Shown piece after piece: positions 5,791 to 46,111 of a DNA stretch of 64,000 bases; the first letter of the stretch is position 1, and each line of letters begins with the position of its first letter. The stretch comes from an uncultured Muribaculaceae bacterium (GTDB lineage: Bacteria > Bacteroidota > Bacteroidia > Bacteroidales > Muribaculaceae). Where the stretch lies: the NCBI GenBank assembly GCA_947625935.1, contig CANQQE010000010.1, positions 36,715 to 100,714 on the forward strand, read 5' to 3'. A program made the translations under genes and the position numbers. Below the pieces are notes generated by a model. It made no database searches, was not told the DNA's origin, and saw nothing but the letters and a program-made list of their open reading frames with translations.

Positions 5791-6480
5791 ATGAAAACAT
5801 TCATCAACTTCTCAGTCGCTTGTCTGTGTGCTGTCCTCCTCGCTTCATGCGGTGGCTCAATAGGGTCGTCATCAGGATGCTTCGGCAAAATCCCCGCGAC
5901 TATAGCCAACTACGAAAAAGAGTATGACGAGGCTCAGGCCAAAATCAACGAAAACAACTACGGCAAAATCAGCAAAAAAATGGACGAGCTCAAAGCCGAG
6001 ACCAAAGCCACTGTCGAGGAAGAGGCTAAAGCCCTCAACGGCAAGGAAGTCCCCGTGTCGGTCGATGAGACCCAACTCAAAATCGAACAGCCCGTCACAC
6101 TCGTTTTTGACTCAATGAACAAATGTATTGCCATGTTCAGTCTCGATGGCAAAGTAGTGGCCGCAACCGATCTAAAACTCAACGCCGACCCCTCCGACCT
6201 GAAAGAGCAGACCCTACTCAGCGGCAGCAAAATCACTGTAACAGTCAAAATGCCTGTTGGCATCGAATTCCTTGATAAAGACGGAAACGTGATGCAAAGC
6301 CGCAAAGACATCGGCGAACTCAACGCCGACAACCTCGGCTCATCGGCTGTAGTCAAAGCAGGCACACCCCTCGAGTTCAAATACAACTTCCCCGTCGACG
6401 AGGCAATGGAAGGGGTCGAATCTCTGCGACTGGTCATTGATCTCAGCAGAACTCCCTATTATGTCCGCGATTTAAACTAA
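5791..6480 (+). CDS. Lipoprotein of unknown function
   Basis: The 229-residue product has a type II signal peptide with a lipobox ending at Cys20 (CAVLLASC). A charged, helical, probably coiled-coil stretch follows (about residues 36-80, rich in E, K and A). The rest looks beta-rich. The conserved family is not recognised. It starts 63 bases after the response regulator and is followed by a strong terminator, so it probably closes the two-component operon. An envelope-stress or sensing role is conceivable from this position only; nothing in the sequence proves it. Confidence 0.7.
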   Translation: MKTFINFSVACLCAVLLASCGGSIGSSSGCFGKIPATIANYEKEYDEAQAKINENNYGKISKKMDELKAETKATVEEEAKALNGKEVPVSVDETQLKIEQPVTLVFDSMNKCIAMFSLDGKVVAATDLKLNADPSDLKEQTLLSGSKITVTVKMPVGIEFLDKDGNVMQSRKDIGELNADNLGSSAVVKAGTPLEFKYNFPVDEAMEGVESLRLVIDLSRTPYYVRDLN

Positions 6481-6499
6481 TTGATAACACACAATCACC

Positions 6500-6537
6500 G
6501 CCGTCCCACCGATACTTTGGGCGGGACGGCTCTTTTT
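6500..6537 (+). terminator. Rho-independent terminator after the lipoprotein gene
   Basis: GCCGTCCC (6500-6507) pairs with GGGACGGC (6523-6530) and is followed by TCTTTTTT. This is a clear intrinsic terminator 20 bases after the lipoprotein stop codon. Confidence 0.88.
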
Positions 6538-6566
6538 TCACAAAACCCACTTAACCGACAAATTCA

Positions 6567-7393
6567 ATGGAAAACTTACTTTTGACATCATCCATACCCT
6601 ACTGGATAGCCTTCGTGCTGATGATAGCCTGCTTTGCCGTGTGCTACTTATACCGCCACAGGCCCGACAGCGACGGCCGCCCCATATCCCGAAACCTCAT
6701 GCTCGCCGTCTCAGCCGCCTGCCTGTCCATTGCGATATTTGAAATCGCCGTCTATTTGACCATAGGGCCTAAATGCCTATGGTGGTGTACTGCCGACGAC
6801 CTCGGATTCTTCGGAAAACTGTTGCGCGAGCTACCGCTGATAACATTCCTCTTCCTGAGGTCATACAGGTATTCTTCTACAAACAATTCATGGACAACTA
6901 CCTGCGCCGCGATATGTCGATAATGCCGTCGGCCATCGGATTCCTCGGAGTGCTGCCGGTCTGCATAATCCTATACATAATCCTATCATTTGTCGACATC
7001 TCAAAAGAAAACCGCGACATGATATTCTACATCGTCCTTGGAGTGATGATGACGGCAGCTATCGGCTACTCCTTGTTCCGAAACATAAAGGAAAGCGGAC
7101 TGCGCAACGGTGCCGTGTTTACAGTTGTGACATCATTGCTGCTATGGGCGTCACTGATATCACTGCTCCTGTTCATCGCATCGATCATAGAGCTACTGTT
7201 CCAGACAGCCATACTGATTGTCGGACTATACTTCGGAAAAAGCGTCTTCCGCGGTATGAACAACGCCATGGTCTACAATAGCGACCAGAAGACAATCTAC
7301 CGCGACATGGACGGAGACTTGCACTACACAAGCTCCGGCGCACAGCAAGCCAACGAACGGATCGCGCGCAAACGCTCACGCATCATCGACTAA
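6567..7393 (+). pseudogene. Polytopic membrane protein interrupted by a frameshift
   Basis: Two overlapping reading frames look like halves of one membrane protein of about 275 residues. The first runs from the ATG at 6567 and gives two to three membrane segments, ending in LLRELPLITFLFL. It then degenerates into a Ser/Thr/Asn-rich non-homologous tail that stops at 6923. The -1 frame picks up with EVIQVFFYKQFMDNYLRRD and carries at least three more hydrophobic segments to a stop at 7393. The change of frame falls near 6855-6860, around ttcctgagg, where one lost base would explain everything. No canonical slippery heptamer sits in the correct frame there. It is either a decayed gene or a sequencing error; the protein family is not recognised. 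Confidence 0.6.
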
Positions 7394-37323: not shown

Positions 37324-37397
37324 CGGGGTGTAGCTCAGTTGGTTAGAGTACGCGTCTGGGGGGCGTGAGGTCGCTAGTTCGAGTCTAGTCACCCCGA
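37324..37397 (+). tRNA. tRNA-Pro (anticodon GGG)
   Basis: The acceptor CGGGGTG pairs with CACCCCG. The D arm is GCTCAGTTGGTTAGAGT. The anticodon stem is CGCGT/GCGTG with two G-T wobbles around the loop CTGGGGG (anticodon GGG). The T arm includes GTTCGAGTC. CCA is not encoded. The gene contains CTAG twice (about 37374 and 37385). Confidence 0.92.
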
Positions 37398-37534: not shown

Positions 37535-38308
37535 ATGACAACAACAAACCCACAACCGTCCCACTCCGACTCGTTAGTGATAATCCCCACCTACAACGAG
37601 AAGGAGAATGTCGCGGCCATCATCGACGCCGTGACCGCCCTGCCCCGCCAGTTTGACATACTAATCATCGACGACAATTCGCCTGACGGCACAGCCGACA
37701 TCGTCAAGCGGCTGCAACAAGGGGAGCACGCCGGACGACTGCACCTGATAGAACGCTCGGGGAAACTCGGCCTCGGCACAGCATACATCACGGGGTTCAA
37801 ATGGGCCTTGGAAAAGGGCTACGACTACATCTTCGAGATGGACGCCGATTTCTCCCACAATCCCAAGGATCTGATGGCACTCTACAAGGCTTGCGCCACC
37901 GACGGAGCCGACATGGCCGTCGGATCGCGCTATCTCACCGGGGTCAACGTTGTCAACTGGCCGATGGGGCGCGTGCTGATGTCATATTACGCATCGGCCT
38001 ATGTGCGCATAGTCACCGGGATGCCCGTGCGCGACACCACGGCGGGCTTCGTGTGCTACACGCGCCGCGTGCTTGAGGCCATCGATTTGGACGCCATACG
38101 CTTCAAAGGCTACGCTTTCCAGATCGAGATGAAGTTCACCGCCCATCAGTTGGGCTTCAAGGTAGTGGAAGTGCCCATCATCTTCGTCAACCGCGTGCTC
38201 GGCACAAGCAAGATGAACTCAGGCATATTCGGCGAGGCCGTCTTCGGAGTCATCAGACTCAAGCTCGACTCGATTTTCAACCGCAACAAACGAAACCGCC
38301 GCTCATGA
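37535..38308 (+). CDS. Polyprenol-phosphate sugar synthase (DPM1-like GT2)
   Basis: This 257-residue GT-A glycosyltransferase resembles dolichol/polyprenol-phosphate mannosyltransferases. Motifs: VIIPTYNEKENVAAIIDAV (N-terminal donor site), ILIIDDNSPDGTADIV, YIFEMDADFSHNPKDL (metal-binding DAD), and VGSRYLTGVNVVNWPMGR. It lacks the C-terminal membrane spans of longer forms. It likely transfers a sugar from a nucleotide donor to undecaprenyl phosphate at the inner face of the membrane, for surface glycan or protein O-glycosylation. Its stop overlaps the pyrC start (ATGA). Confidence 0.92.
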   Translation: MTTTNPQPSHSDSLVIIPTYNEKENVAAIIDAVTALPRQFDILIIDDNSPDGTADIVKRLQQGEHAGRLHLIERSGKLGLGTAYITGFKWALEKGYDYIFEMDADFSHNPKDLMALYKACATDGADMAVGSRYLTGVNVVNWPMGRVLMSYYASAYVRIVTGMPVRDTTAGFVCYTRRVLEAIDLDAIRFKGYAFQIEMKFTAHQLGFKVVEVPIIFVNRVLGTSKMNSGIFGEAVFGVIRLKLDSIFNRNKRNRRS

Positions 38309-39666
38309 CCGCCCCGACCGCCACACCAAGACTGTCGCTGCTTGTGCGCAACGCCGAAATTGTCAACGAAGGGGAGCGTTTCCGGGGGTATCTTACCGTC
38401 GACGCCGACGGAATGATCGGCGAGACCGGCCGCGGCGAGCCACAGGACGACCTGCTCCGCGCCGCAGCCGAAACTATCGACGCCGAGGGGCAACTGCTGC
38501 TGCCGGGAGTGATTGACACCCATGTCCATTTCCGCGACCCGGGGCTGACCGCCAAGGGTGACATAGCCACCGAATCGCGCGCGGCCTTGGCCGGGGGCGT
38601 CACCTCGTTCATAGATATGCCCAACACCCGCCCCGCAACCGTCAGCATAGACGCATGGGAGGCCAAGATGGAACGCGCGGCGGAGGTCTCGGCAATAAAC
38701 TACGCATTTTATATCGGTGCGACAGCCGACAACTTAGACACGCTCGCAAAGGCCGATTACAGCCGCGTGGCCGCGGTCAAACTGTTTCTCGGCTCATCGA
38801 CAGGGAATATGCTCTTAGACGAGCCGGAGGCCCTGAAAAAGCTGTTCAGAAACGTTCCCGCGCTTATAGCCGTCCACGCCGAGAGCGAACCGCTCATAGC
38901 CGCCGGGCGCGCCGAGGCTATAGCCCGCTTCGGGGAGGGGAGAGTGCCGCTGCCGATGCACTCGGTGATACGCTCGCGAAAAGCCTGCGTAGAGGCTTCG
39001 CGCCGCGCCGCGGCCATAGCCCGCGAGACAGGGGCGCGCCTGCACCTGCTACACATCTCCACCGCCGACGAGCTTTCGCTGCTCACACCCGGGCCTGTCG
39101 CCGGCAAAAGCATCACCGCCGAGACCTGCCCCAACTATCTGCTACTGACCGCACTCGATTACCCCCGCATGGGAAGCCGATGCAAATGCAACCCGGCTGT
39201 CAAACTGCCCGCCGACCGCGACGCCCTGCGCCGCGCCGTAGCCGCCGACCTGATAGACACCATAGCCACCGACCACGCCCCGCATCTGCCCGCCGACAAA
39301 GAGGGCGACGCACTGACGGCGGCGTCGGGGATGCCTATGATACAGTTCTCGCTCCCGGCTATGCTCGACCTCGCCGCCGAGGGATGGTGGAGCATAGAGA
39401 AAGTGGTGGAGAAGATGGCCCATAACCCCGCCGAGCTCTACCGCATAGACCGCCGCGGCTTCCTCAGACCCGGCTACCACGCCGATTTCACGCTCGTGGC
39501 GCGTCGGCCGCAGACCGTCACCGCCGAGAGCATACTGAGCCGATGCGGGTGGTCGCCCCTCGAAGGGCGCACCCTGGGCCACACACCCACCGCCGTCTAC
39601 ATCGGCGGCCGCCTCGCCTACCCCACCCCGACCCACACCCCCCAACCCCTCCGCTTCAACCCATAA
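38305..39666 (+). CDS. pyrC: Dihydroorotase
   Basis: This 453-residue amidohydrolase closes carbamoyl aspartate to dihydroorotate in pyrimidine synthesis. The metal-binding DTHVHFRDPGL and late TIATDHAPHLPADKEGDA motifs are intact. The type I (long) dihydroorotase layout is seen: LLPGVIDTHVHFRDPG, then SFIDMPNTRPAT and HLLHISTADELSLL. A carboxylated-lysine position is not obvious from the sequence alone. The gene is coupled to the upstream glycosyltransferase by ATGA. The AT-rich restriction-modification cassette begins 14 bases after its stop. Confidence 0.94.
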   Translation: MTAPTATPRLSLLVRNAEIVNEGERFRGYLTVDADGMIGETGRGEPQDDLLRAAAETIDAEGQLLLPGVIDTHVHFRDPGLTAKGDIATESRAALAGGVTSFIDMPNTRPATVSIDAWEAKMERAAEVSAINYAFYIGATADNLDTLAKADYSRVAAVKLFLGSSTGNMLLDEPEALKKLFRNVPALIAVHAESEPLIAAGRAEAIARFGEGRVPLPMHSVIRSRKACVEASRRAAAIARETGARLHLLHISTADELSLLTPGPVAGKSITAETCPNYLLLTALDYPRMGSRCKCNPAVKLPADRDALRRAVAADLIDTIATDHAPHLPADKEGDALTAASGMPMIQFSLPAMLDLAAEGWWSIEKVVEKMAHNPAELYRIDRRGFLRPGYHADFTLVARRPQTVTAESILSRCGWSPLEGRTLGHTPTAVYIGGRLAYPTPTHTPQPLRFNP

Positions 39667-39680
39667 CCACCCAACCCCCC

Positions 39681-40964
39681 ATGCAAAAACAACATATCCT
39701 CATAAACGGTGATAGCCGAAAAATGTCGTTAATTCCTGACAAATCGGTGCATCTCATAGTAACGTCTCCTCCATATTGGCAACTCAAAGATTACGGAAGT
39801 GATCACCAAATAGGATTCCATGACAGTTACGAAAGCTACATCAATAATCTGAACATGGTGTGGTCAGAGTGTTACAGGGTGCTTCATGACGGCTGTCGCC
39901 TATGTATAAACATAGGTGACCAATTTGCACGTTCAGTATATTACGGCAGATACAAAGTAATTCCAATCAGAACAGAGATAATACGTTTCTGCGAATCTAT
40001 CGGAATGGATTATATGGGAGCCATTATCTGGCAAAAGCAGACAACCATGAACACCACCGGCGGCGGGGCTGTCATGGGAAGTTTTCCTTATCCACGCAAC
40101 GGGATATTAAAAATAGACTATGAATTTATCCTTATATTCAAGAAGCACGGTAAGGCACCTATTCCGACACTCGAACAGAAACAAATGTCAGCAATGACAA
40201 AAGACGAGTGGAATGCTTATTTTTCCTCTCACTGGACTTTCGGTGGAGCAAAGCAAGACGGCCATATAGCGGTGTTCCCCACGGAATTGCCCCATAGGCT
40301 GATTAAAATGTTCTCTTTTGTCAATGAAACAGTTCTTGACCCGTTTATGGGCAGTGGTACCACAGCACTGGCCGCACGCAATCTCGGACGAAACTCCATC
40401 GGATATGAAATTAATCCGGAATTTAGAGAATATTACAATCAGAAACTATCCAATGATTTGTTAAGCCACTCAGAAAATGTCGAATACCGATATCTTTCAG
40501 ATAATTCAGAGGTAGACCTCGAGGAACTATCGTCCACGCTTCCTTATACTTTCCATGACCCACACAAAATGGAAAACAAGGTAGACCCGAAACAATTGCA
40601 ATTTGGCTCAAGAATCGACAAAAACAAGTCCAACCGAGAAGATTATTTTTCAGTAAAATCAATTTTATCGCCAAACACCGTTGTTTTGGACAATGGACTA
40701 ACCGTTCGTCTCATAGGAGTAAAAGAAAAACCATCGGCCAATGGAAACGCCACGAAATACCTGAAAGAAAAGACAAAAGGTCATAAGGTCTTTCTGCGAT
40801 ATGATGATATCAAATATGACGACAACAACGCCTTAATGTGCTACTTATACTTAGAGAACAAAACATTCATAAACGCTCATATCATAAAAAACGGATTAGC
40901 TGAAGTTGACGAATCCCTTGACTTTAAATACAAGCATAAATTTAAATCATTGATCAAACAGTAG
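39681..40964 (+). CDS. DNA methyltransferase (N4-cytosine type) fused to an SNase-like domain
   Basis: This 427-residue protein has a beta-class methyltransferase order: the catalytic TSPPYW motif (28-33) precedes the SAM motif DPFMGSGTT (220-228). SPPY rather than N/DPPY suggests cytosine-N4 methylation. Residues about 315-427 resemble a staphylococcal nuclease/TNase fold: VKSILSPNTVVLDNG, TVRLIGV, and FINAHIIKNGLAEVD. The nuclease residues equivalent to Asp21, Asp40, Glu43 and Arg87 appear lost; only an Arg35-like residue (R343) is kept. The frame runs back to 39543 inside pyrC, but the ATG at 39681 starts right at the domain. The restriction enzyme follows after 7 bases. Composition is much more AT-rich than pyrC and upp. 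Confidence 0.9.
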   Translation: MQKQHILINGDSRKMSLIPDKSVHLIVTSPPYWQLKDYGSDHQIGFHDSYESYINNLNMVWSECYRVLHDGCRLCINIGDQFARSVYYGRYKVIPIRTEIIRFCESIGMDYMGAIIWQKQTTMNTTGGGAVMGSFPYPRNGILKIDYEFILIFKKHGKAPIPTLEQKQMSAMTKDEWNAYFSSHWTFGGAKQDGHIAVFPTELPHRLIKMFSFVNETVLDPFMGSGTTALAARNLGRNSIGYEINPEFREYYNQKLSNDLLSHSENVEYRYLSDNSEVDLEELSSTLPYTFHDPHKMENKVDPKQLQFGSRIDKNKSNREDYFSVKSILSPNTVVLDNGLTVRLIGVKEKPSANGNATKYLKEKTKGHKVFLRYDDIKYDDNNALMCYLYLENKTFINAHIIKNGLAEVDESLDFKYKHKFKSLIKQ

Positions 40965-40971
40965 TAGCGAT

Positions 40972-41658
40972 ATGGAACGACATTCGATGGATTTTGGAAA
41001 AAGAGAACGTGTCTTGAACTACGCCTGCCAAACTTACCAACTTTCAAGGCCAAACAAAGTGGGAGCCGTCATGTCTCTCATTCGCGACTGCCAACCATCA
41101 TCTTTTGATGAGTGGGAGTCATGGTATTTTGAAAATGCTTATACAACAAGTAAAAATCCAGTCAAAATCACTAATGAAACTTTAATAGAACTTGGTGAAA
41201 GGCTATATGCTAAAATAACAGAAATCGTTATTCCCGAGTGGGAGGCCGCATTTAAAGAACTGACGGAACAAGATTGCATAGACTATATTTATAACCTAAC
41301 CATAAATCGCACATATGATGGGTATATGCGTGAAAAATCGGTGATCAATGATGGTCTATCAAAAATATTTCCTAATATCAAGTTTGAGGAAAGCGATCCC
41401 GAATTAGACCATGCGGGAGATATTGACTATATCGCCCGGATAGGGAACAAGGCGTTTGGAATACAAATTAAGCCCATCACATCTGCGTCCAATTTTGGAG
41501 GGTATTCCCTGTCAGAACGCATGAAAGCGAGTTTCGAATCATTTAAGAACGAGTATGGCGGCAATGTGTTCATAGTCTACAGCCTTGACGGAGAGATTGC
41601 GAACGAGAATGTCATAGAGGATATCCGCACAGAAATCAAACGTATTTCAGTCAATTAA
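40972..41658 (+). CDS. Type II restriction endonuclease, MjaI-like
   Basis: This 228-residue protein is the partner nuclease of the upstream methyltransferase. It resembles MjaI-family endonucleases, whose prototype cuts CTAG. A PD-(D/E)XK-like site is visible: DPELDHAGDIDYIARIGNKA (142-161) with acidic D150/D152, then FGIQIKP with Q165 and K167, i.e. D...QxK instead of ExK. The region RTYDGYMREKSVINDGLSK (about 117-135) is a family-like block. The start 7 bases after the methylase stop implies a single transcript. The specificity is inferred, not shown. There is no separate control protein. Confidence 0.78.
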   Translation: MERHSMDFGKRERVLNYACQTYQLSRPNKVGAVMSLIRDCQPSSFDEWESWYFENAYTTSKNPVKITNETLIELGERLYAKITEIVIPEWEAAFKELTEQDCIDYIYNLTINRTYDGYMREKSVINDGLSKIFPNIKFEESDPELDHAGDIDYIARIGNKAFGIQIKPITSASNFGGYSLSERMKASFESFKNEYGGNVFIVYSLDGEIANENVIEDIRTEIKRISVN

Positions 41659-41700: not shown

Positions 41701-42354
41701 ATGAAAGTAGTTAATTTTGCAGAGCATAAGTCGCTGATGAGCCAGTTCATGATGGAGCTGCGCGACACGACGATACAGAAAGATATGATGCGTTTCCGCC
41801 GCAACTTGGAGCGCATCGGCGAGATAATGGCGTTTGAAATCAGCCGCACGCTGAACTACAAGACCGTCGACACCCCCACTCCGCTCGGCACGGCCCCATG
41901 TGACGTGATAGCCGACCGGGTGGTGCTGGCCACCATATTCCGCGCCGGCATCCCGTTCCACCAAGGGTTCCTGAACTATTTAGACCACGCCGAAAACGCC
42001 TTCGTCTCGGCCTACAGGAAATATAAGGAGAAGGAGAATTTCGACGTTTTCATCGAGTATCTGGCGTCGCCGCGCTTAGACGGCAAAACGCTTATCATCG
42101 CCGACCCGATGCTGGCCACAGGGGCCTCGATGGAGCTGAGCTACAGGGCTTTGATGACCAAGGGAGAACCGAGCCACATACACGTCGCATCGGTGATAGC
42201 GTCGCAACAGGCCGTCGATTACATCAAGAGCCGTTTCCCGGCCGACAAAACCACAATCTGGGTGGGCGCCGTAGACAAGGAAATCAACGCCCACAGCTAT
42301 ATTGTGCCCGGACTGGGCGATGCCGGCGACTTGGCCTACGGCATCAAGGAGTGA
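41701..42354 (+). CDS. upp: Uracil phosphoribosyltransferase
   Basis: This 217-residue salvage enzyme makes UMP from uracil and PRPP. The PRPP-binding loop is IIADPMLATGASMELSYRAL. Earlier marks are ATIFRAGIPFHQGFLNYL and a late VPGLGDAGDLAYGIKE, which holds the uracil-binding GDAGD. The protein is complete and of normal length. It starts 42 bases after the restriction cassette and its 3' end overlaps the convergent phosphopantetheinyl transferase by 11 bases. It and pyrC are both pyrimidine genes and probably were neighbours before the cassette inserted between them. Confidence 0.96.
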   Translation: MKVVNFAEHKSLMSQFMMELRDTTIQKDMMRFRRNLERIGEIMAFEISRTLNYKTVDTPTPLGTAPCDVIADRVVLATIFRAGIPFHQGFLNYLDHAENAFVSAYRKYKEKENFDVFIEYLASPRLDGKTLIIADPMLATGASMELSYRALMTKGEPSHIHVASVIASQQAVDYIKSRFPADKTTIWVGAVDKEINAHSYIVPGLGDAGDLAYGIKE

Positions 42355-45083: not shown

Positions 45084-45563
45084 TCACGAGAGTGCGTCAA
45101 AACTATCGCCAATAAGCCCAAATTGAGCAAGGCGTTCCTCGCTCTCTGCAGGGCTTTCCTTAACTGTGCCTATTATCAACTCCACGTCATATTCGTCAAT
45201 CTCGCCCAAATAACTCCACTCACTGAACTTATGAGGAAAAGCGATCTTCAAGCGAACGCAATCCACAAAAGAATCGTAGCTTAGAAATGGATACTTCGAC
45301 TTCTTTATGGGCATATGATACAGTTTTAGGTGCGAAGGAAGATTTTTGTTGATTTGTGAATTTATGATAACACCCCCATATGCAATGCCGTTGACATCAA
45401 AACCAAGCACGATAAAATATTTGTCTCTTGAAGAATCTCCGGCTTTAGGTCTTATTCCATTAGCCTCTGTCATTGTCATCTCATAGACATCCCCGACCTT
45501 GACTGTGCGAGACGCTAACCGTGATAGCTCCTCCCCATTAAGAGCATCAGAAATTTTAATCAT
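45084..45563 (-). CDS. Putative PemK/MazF-fold toxin partnered with a Panacea antitoxin
   Basis: The 159-residue protein has features recalling PemK/MazF-type SH3 barrels: VGDVYEMTMTEANG near the N-terminus, DKYFIVLGFDVNGIAYGGVI, INSQIN, and SYDSFVDCVRLKI followed by LGEID. Similarity is weak and not decisive. It overlaps the stop of the upstream gene by ATGA, and gene order (regulator first, effector second) is typical of toxin-antitoxin pairs. If correct it would be an mRNA interferase or similar growth-arresting effector. AT-rich composition fits a mobile cassette. It could instead be another kind of effector neutralised by the Panacea protein. Confidence 0.5.
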   Translation of the reverse strand: MIKISDALNGEELSRLASRTVKVGDVYEMTMTEANGIRPKAGDSSRDKYFIVLGFDVNGIAYGGVIINSQINKNLPSHLKLYHMPIKKSKYPFLSYDSFVDCVRLKIAFPHKFSEWSYLGEIDEYDVELIIGTVKESPAESEERLAQFGLIGDSFDALS

Positions 45564-46111
45564 TTCAAAACTGATTCAATCTTCATTTGCTCTTCAATGT
45601 ATTCAAGCATCGCATCATCGGCATGAAAAACCTTTGCCATAGAAATTGGCGAAATTATATTTGTACCGTTGACATGACGATTGGCTTCGTCCCAGGCCTC
45701 ATCGTGTGACTTTCCCACAAGCTGTCCGAATGTCAGTGATTTGTTTTCTTCAATTGACTGCTCCAATGCCTCAATCTCCGATCTGGAGAGGAACTTCAAA
45801 TTAGCCTCGCGCTTTGGAAGAAGAACATTAGGTGCATCTTCTCCGGCAAACCTAACGACCTCTGCCAAACATTCAGAGAGTGCCATTTTCGGCTGATTAA
45901 GTTCCTTTACCGCATCGTACAAACGTGTAGGGACCGGACCGTACTTCAACGCACAGAACTCATCGGGCACAATGCCGCTTCCCCATTTTGCAAGATGTTT
46001 CATTTCTGCAAAATAGAGAATCTTGAAAGCATGGTAAAAGTCTATTCCTCCAGTCTTTCCAAGTATGTACAGAACTAATTCTGTAAGTTTCTTGCAGTCA
46101 AAACTCGTCAT
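45560..46111 (-). CDS. Panacea-domain (SocA/DUF4065-like) antitoxin
   Basis: This 183-residue protein matches the Panacea domain: LTELVLYILGKTGGIDFYHA, then FKILYFAEMKHLAKWGSGIV and FCALKYGPVPTRLYDAVKEL. The domain is known as a widely exchanged antitoxin module that neutralises many unrelated toxins by direct binding. It is coupled to the downstream putative toxin (ATGA). A perfect promoter lies at 46172-46202, and GTTCT/AGAAC arms (46121-46138) sit between it and the ATG at 46111. The start is the only ATG consistent with the domain. Confidence 0.82.
   Translation of the reverse strand: MTSFDCKKLTELVLYILGKTGGIDFYHAFKILYFAEMKHLAKWGSGIVPDEFCALKYGPVPTRLYDAVKELNQPKMALSECLAEVVRFAGEDAPNVLLPKREANLKFLSRSEIEALEQSIEENKSLTFGQLVGKSHDEAWDEANRHVNGTNIISPISMAKVFHADDAMLEYIEEQMKIESVLK

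Follow-up and report, generated by a model that had tools for sequence, protein, structure and literature searches.

Background

The MthZI system of plasmid pFZ1 has, like the locus analysed here, a beta-class methylase with an SPPY motif beside an endonuclease of the MjaI family. PMC5867850 describes M.MthZI as a CTAG methylase of the m4C type that has been characterised, and M.MjaI and M.BfaI, also CTAG m4C methylases, are grouped with the MthZI system. M.MthZI has 355 aa and no match to the staphylococcal nuclease (SNase) family, and its gene is convergent with its endonuclease gene, unlike the arrangement in our cassette. The nearest solved structure to the methylase part of our locus is that of TTHA0409 (2zie/2zif/2zig), a putative methylase of Thermus thermophilus, although its chain has 297 residues, the alignment is limited to residues 4-275 and no C-terminal domain was matched. 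In PADLOC, the MTase_II model PDLC03259 matches residues 4-422 of the methylase (E 8e-171), the fused length included, and the REase_II model PDLC03450 matches residues 34-226 of the endonuclease (E 1e-94); both are models of the same protein families. The family is thus already catalogued, through PDLC03259, but these models say nothing of the SNase domain or its state.

Organization of the cassette

The features of the cassette and its flanks are summarized in Table 1, where positions refer to the window, i.e. the whole stretch of 64,000 nucleotides that was analysed. The mechanical open reading frame of the methylase opens at 39543; most full-length relatives start at residues 1-5 counted from 39681. 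The N-terminal part belongs to the beta-class amino methyltransferases (PF01555; 160.8 bits, cut-off 26.7), with motif IV (SPPY, residues 29-32) before motif I, and both motifs named in the original prediction were located where it had placed them. The second gene, 7 bases away, encodes a member of the MjaI endonuclease family (PF09568; 102 bits, cut-off 22.7), and the D...QxK site expected for it was found. D152 and K167 are present in 110 of 111 endonucleases. No sequence match to the endonuclease was found among solved structures up to E 5, and an MjaI-family fold search gave modest Z only.

Table 1. Coordinates of the cassette, its parts and the flanking genes in the window
Feature	Position	Strand	Basis or remark
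DNA methylase fused to SNase-like domain, 427 aa	39681..40964	+	relatives, family scores, predicted structure
Beta-class methylase part, residues 1-270	39681..40490	+	TSPPYW 28-33, DPFMGSGTT 220-228
Linker, residues 271-317, conserved LPYxFxDPHK...FGS	40491..40631	+	alignment columns
SNase-fold domain, predicted to be catalytically dead, residues 318-427	40632..40961	+	family score, predicted fold, alignment
R343 codon; K348 codon (Asp40 place)	40707-40709; 40722-40724	+	within SNase-fold domain
MjaI-family restriction endonuclease, 228 aa	40972..41658	+	PF09568
Endonuclease D152 codon; Q165 codon; K167 codon	41425-41427; 41464-41466; 41470-41472	+
Amidohydrolase gene, reads as dihydroorotase	38305-39666		flanks cassette; Pfam (the name dihydroorotase is our assignment)
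Uracil phosphoribosyltransferase gene	41701-42354		other cassette flank; Pfam

The GC content of the two-gene cassette is 40% against 54% for the window, which argues for acquisition by transfer, and the locus is probably a transfer-acquired type II restriction-modification cassette. In the stretches taken from three congeners, dihydroorotase was not found near uracil phosphoribosyltransferase, so these stretches do not show an empty insertion site. A SocA/Panacea-type antitoxin gene (45563-46111, minus strand), lying some 3.4 kb away from the cassette, overlaps a gene for 159 aa with no Pfam match (45087-45563, minus strand), and the two look like a toxin-antitoxin pair.

An SNase fold with a dismantled metal site

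The C-terminal region of the methylase scored over the cut-off of the SNase superfamily (PF00565) and has an SNase fold in the predicted structure, so that the assignment proposed originally was borne out by both checks. The AF2 model of the methylase has a pTM of 0.63, and its pLDDT is low at residues 297-318 and falls below 50 in some stretches of the linker and the target-recognition region; therefore, the model does not place the domain relative to DNA.

To describe the active site we use the SNase residue numbering, in which we take Asp21, Arg35, Asp40, Glu43 and Arg87 to be the catalytic residues, and an alignment set of 61 full-length sequences (the window protein and 60 relatives), which are the 71 methylase matches under 1e-100 less 10 that did not span query residues 25-405. 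One of them, L028, ends at a contig end and is counted among the 61 while absent from a 60-row alignment. Identity of the domain to that of the window ranges from 34 to 74% among 59 relatives. The Asp21 place is occupied by Asn (27), Glu (21), Tyr (5), Val (4), Ser (3) or Phe (1), and the Asp40 place by Lys (54), Glu (3), Gln (2), Thr (1) or Arg (1), so that none of the 61 has Asp at either. Arg stands at the Arg87 place in six sequences, and Glu at the Glu43 place in three, although the latter placement is approximate owing to a different loop length. The Arg35 place, in contrast to these losses, has Arg in 49, Lys in 11 and His in one. The counterparts of Asp77 and Asn100 are invariant and that of Asp83 is kept in 58. 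In the window protein only the Arg35 counterpart (R343) is left, as had been predicted.

The domain is thus not a member of the active staphylococcal nucleases: it differs from them in having neither the metal-site acids nor the second arginine, and in being joined to a methylase. As judged from the alignment, it is catalytically dead, with its metal site dismantled, and the architecture of a methylase with a dead SNase fold beside an MjaI-like endonuclease was confirmed. Since the dead site is common to all 61 sequences, its loss is old and family-wide and does not reflect degeneration of this strain's copy. SNase folds without catalytic residues doing other work are known from the inactive SN domains of Tudor-SN/SND1, which are eukaryotic and RNA-related. 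A thermonuclease-type match in such a gene need not mean nuclease activity.

Distribution of the fused methylase

Because the requirement for residues 25-405 favours SNase carriers, we took the frequency of the fusion from the endonuclease search. RE_MjaI is present in 63 of 395 same-phylum genomes (66 matches), and 58 regions were fetched, the remainder being the window's own match, a second match inside L128 and six weak or split matches. The SNase-fused methylase was found in 45 of the 58 regions (44 in one frame with methylase residues and one in a frame cut at a contig start) and is the commonest architecture there. The other regions have an MthZI-type methylase without the domain (8), a methylase fragment (1), no methylase (3), or, in L128, an MthZI-type methylase together with a methylase of our clade with another C-terminus. 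Given this frequency and the near-complete span of the PADLOC model, the arrangement, ranked originally as the most novel in the window, does not stand alone; it is conserved and widespread, a variant within restriction-modification systems of a known kind.

In a domain-profile search of 247 same-phylum genomes, 47 had a match with E no higher than 1e-4, and most of the strong matches fall in fragments or in frames about 430 residues long. Two genomes of one genus (G383 and G427 of g167) have 8 and 5 matches, and in each of them the SNase-fused region is repeated several times, both intact and broken. Named carriers of the fused methylase include Bacteroides salyersiae DSM 18765 (L002) and Hoylesella marshii DSM 16973 (L017). 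Further relatives are on contigs titled Magnetominusculus, Chlorobiaceae, Ignavibacteria, Deltaproteobacteria, Cloacimonetes, Aerophobetes, Oscillibacter and Abditibacteriales, and the domain is present on two viral contigs; among named plasmids and phages no record covered 80% of the methylase. Our literature search, for which most subscription papers and REBASE were out of reach so that absence from it weighs little, turned up no account of a DNA methylase bearing an SNase domain, and its query on Tudor-SN returned nothing.

In a tree of 111 endonucleases, 22 rows group with R.MthZI and 89 with the window's endonuclease, which is 20-26% identical to four enzymes of the MthZI branch (20% to R.MthZI itself in the endonuclease alignment). 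The neighbouring methylase of the 22 MthZI-branch rows is without the domain in nine, with it in eight and unclassed in one, and the remaining four have two neighbouring methylases, one of MthZI type and the other with a different C-terminus. The endonucleases of L117 (methylase without the domain) and L118 (with it), both of this branch, are 61% identical. In the window branch, 84 of the 89 rows have the fused methylase in the locus; the exceptions are L136 (domain at a contig start), L147 and L166 (no methylase seen), and L084 and L085, which have long, unsure branches and adjoin MthZI-type methylases without the domain.

Some cassettes have additional genes. Two methylases and two MjaI-family endonuclease frames each are present in L185 (6585-10323) and L128 (760-4747), and one MthZI-type methylase with two such frames in L190 (4295-6736); perhaps these are paired enzymes for an asymmetric site. 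In L041, methylase and endonuclease are separated by putAbiC (6248-7117), a putative gene for phage abortive infection.

Target site

The window system probably targets CTAG, as suggested by a chain of sequence relatives. The methylase of L038 is 86% identical to that of the window over residues 118-200, the presumed target-recognition region, and the endonuclease of L038 falls into the MthZI branch, with 39% identity to R.MthZI; together these point to CTAG, if the branch cuts CTAG. Against this stands the identity of only 20-26% between the window endonuclease and the four MthZI-branch enzymes compared. The methylase parts of M.MthZI and the window protein align over residues 1-277 with 33% identity (36% over residues 1-270 for MthZI-type methylases), and in the methylase tree (67 of 126 rows) the window methylase is in a branch separate from the MthZI-type CTAG methylases.

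CTAG occurs twice in the window (at 37374 and 37385) against 100 expected, and twice against 204 expected in eight stretches of the host genome G000 (contigs C1-C8, first 20 kb each). Observed over expected counts in three congeners are 7/133, 9/70 and 38/97, so that the host is lowest of its four-genome genus; G015 was omitted from the counts, having only two contigs under 400 bases. Nine same-family genomes, chosen by an absent P0001 match and not by an RE_MjaI search, have 23/450 when pooled, with 0 or 1 site in five of the nine. Avoidance of CTAG is therefore general in the host's family, and its scarcity in G000 is not diagnostic of the target site. Pooled counts are 89/363 for the 45 SNase-positive regions and 8/75 for the eight MthZI-type regions.

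Proposed role of the domain

Our best explanation, which we consider to have about an even chance of being correct, is a type II cassette whose methylase carries a dead SNase domain that holds DNA, with probable m4C modification of CTAG. The methylase would modify a short palindromic site, probably CTAG with the methyl group on cytosine N4, and cleavage of the unmodified site would fall to the MjaI-family enzyme. The former SNase domain, its metal site dismantled by changes such as Lys at the Asp40 place while the fold and basic character were kept, may hold DNA for the methylase by clamping phosphates of the flanking DNA or of the non-target strand, and in a dimer the clamp may be supplied by the partner subunit, as in CcrM. 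We infer the DNA holding, the CTAG site and the m4C product, and of the roles proposed for the domain DNA binding is favoured. Lys/Arg columns (at least 90% of the 61 rows) number 12 in the domain against 5 acidic ones, compared with 20 and 19 in the methylase part, and the net charge of the domain has a median of +5 (range 0 to 15). MthZI-type methylases do without the domain, which counts against this explanation.

Alternatively, the domain could regulate the cassette by binding the cassette's promoter or its RNA, which would put expression of the endonuclease under control of the methylase. Methylases with regulatory extensions are known, and no separate controller gene was seen in the window cassette. 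Between methylase and endonuclease, a related-looking frame of about 110 residues is present in L009 (6262-6600; no Pfam or PADLOC match, the only one scanned), L013 (1455-1793), L014 (1712-2089), L052 (6235-6600) and L048 (6244-6627) and absent in the window; it might be a controller. However, the domain is kept where this frame is present and in three loci in which no endonuclease was found, and we regard regulation as unlikely.

Equally, an inert structural relic that merely stabilises the methylase would explain the loss of the catalytic residues and the faster evolution of the domain, whose median dN/dS is 0.20, compared with 0.17 for the linker and 0.08 for the methylase part (17 of 1,830 possible pairs passed the dS filter, and these are not independent). 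One pair, L012/L013, has 0.56 in the domain, which also speaks against our best explanation. In L077 (1462-2877), L079 (1486-2880) and L128 (1916-3313), same-clade methylases have, after a similar linker, an unrelated C-terminus of about 150 residues with no Pfam match in place of the SNase domain, an exchange that would suit a relic and also fits an accessory module. Nevertheless, these ratios show that purifying selection persists on the domain, in which N393, T395 and F396 are invariant and basic columns are conserved; a relic is improbable, and the domain is probably a working part conserved in many relatives.

The original prediction had also considered a module that reads methylation and one that bridges the two enzymes. 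Docking of the endonuclease onto the methylase would fit the adjacency of the two genes in most carriers, with an MjaI-family gene in the examined stretch of 56 of the 61 (that of L069 about 2 kb away, in wider DNA), and OB folds often bind proteins. Of the others, L028 and L055 are cut by a contig end, and L030, L032 and L073 keep the domain with no MjaI-family endonuclease in the 9 to 16 kb examined. The domain is also kept with an inverted endonuclease gene (L038, L047) and with endonucleases of both branches, while L084 and L085 show window-branch endonucleases beside methylases without it. In partial Mantel tests over 88 loci, which count related loci as separate and are indicative only (L143, which looks like the same contig as L033, was excluded), domain distances did not follow endonuclease distances given the methylase (0.026, p 0.32), whereas methylase distances did given the domain (0.244, p 0.002). 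It is apparently the methylase, not the endonuclease, that the domain serves, and we think docking quite unlikely. Finally, a still active nuclease with a rebuilt site, for which the Arg or Lys at the Arg35 place in 60 of 61 and the conserved D375 and D380 might speak, is very improbable, as none of the 61 has Asp at the Asp21 or Asp40 place and D375 and D380 presumably correspond to Asp77 and Asp83, neither of which binds the metal in SNase.

Comparison with known systems

The proposed DNA holding by the domain would have an analogue in CcrM, likewise a beta-class methylase that is extended, beyond a linker, by an additional C-terminal domain (PMC6787082). The SNase domain takes the same position behind a conserved linker and carries a basic residue where SNase has a metal ligand, and it may do the same kind of work. 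A bolder proposal, which we offer tentatively and with some doubt, is that a whole lineage of restriction methylases, the commonest beside MjaI-type endonucleases in our sample, took up a nuclease domain and converted the cleft that cut with the help of metal into a pocket that holds DNA without it (Lys at the Asp40 place), with a nuclease fold serving modification and a C-terminal module exchangeable at a fixed linker. If our reading is right, the usual picture of MjaI-type systems changes, as most of their methylases in the sampled regions carry the domain. A nuclease fold would then have been recruited to give a DNA-modifying enzyme an accessory grip, a solution with no relation to the one that CcrM has at the same place of the enzyme. 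CcrM targets GANTC with N6-adenine modification, and its C-terminal domain is described in PMC6787082 as SAND/PWWP-like, not SNase.
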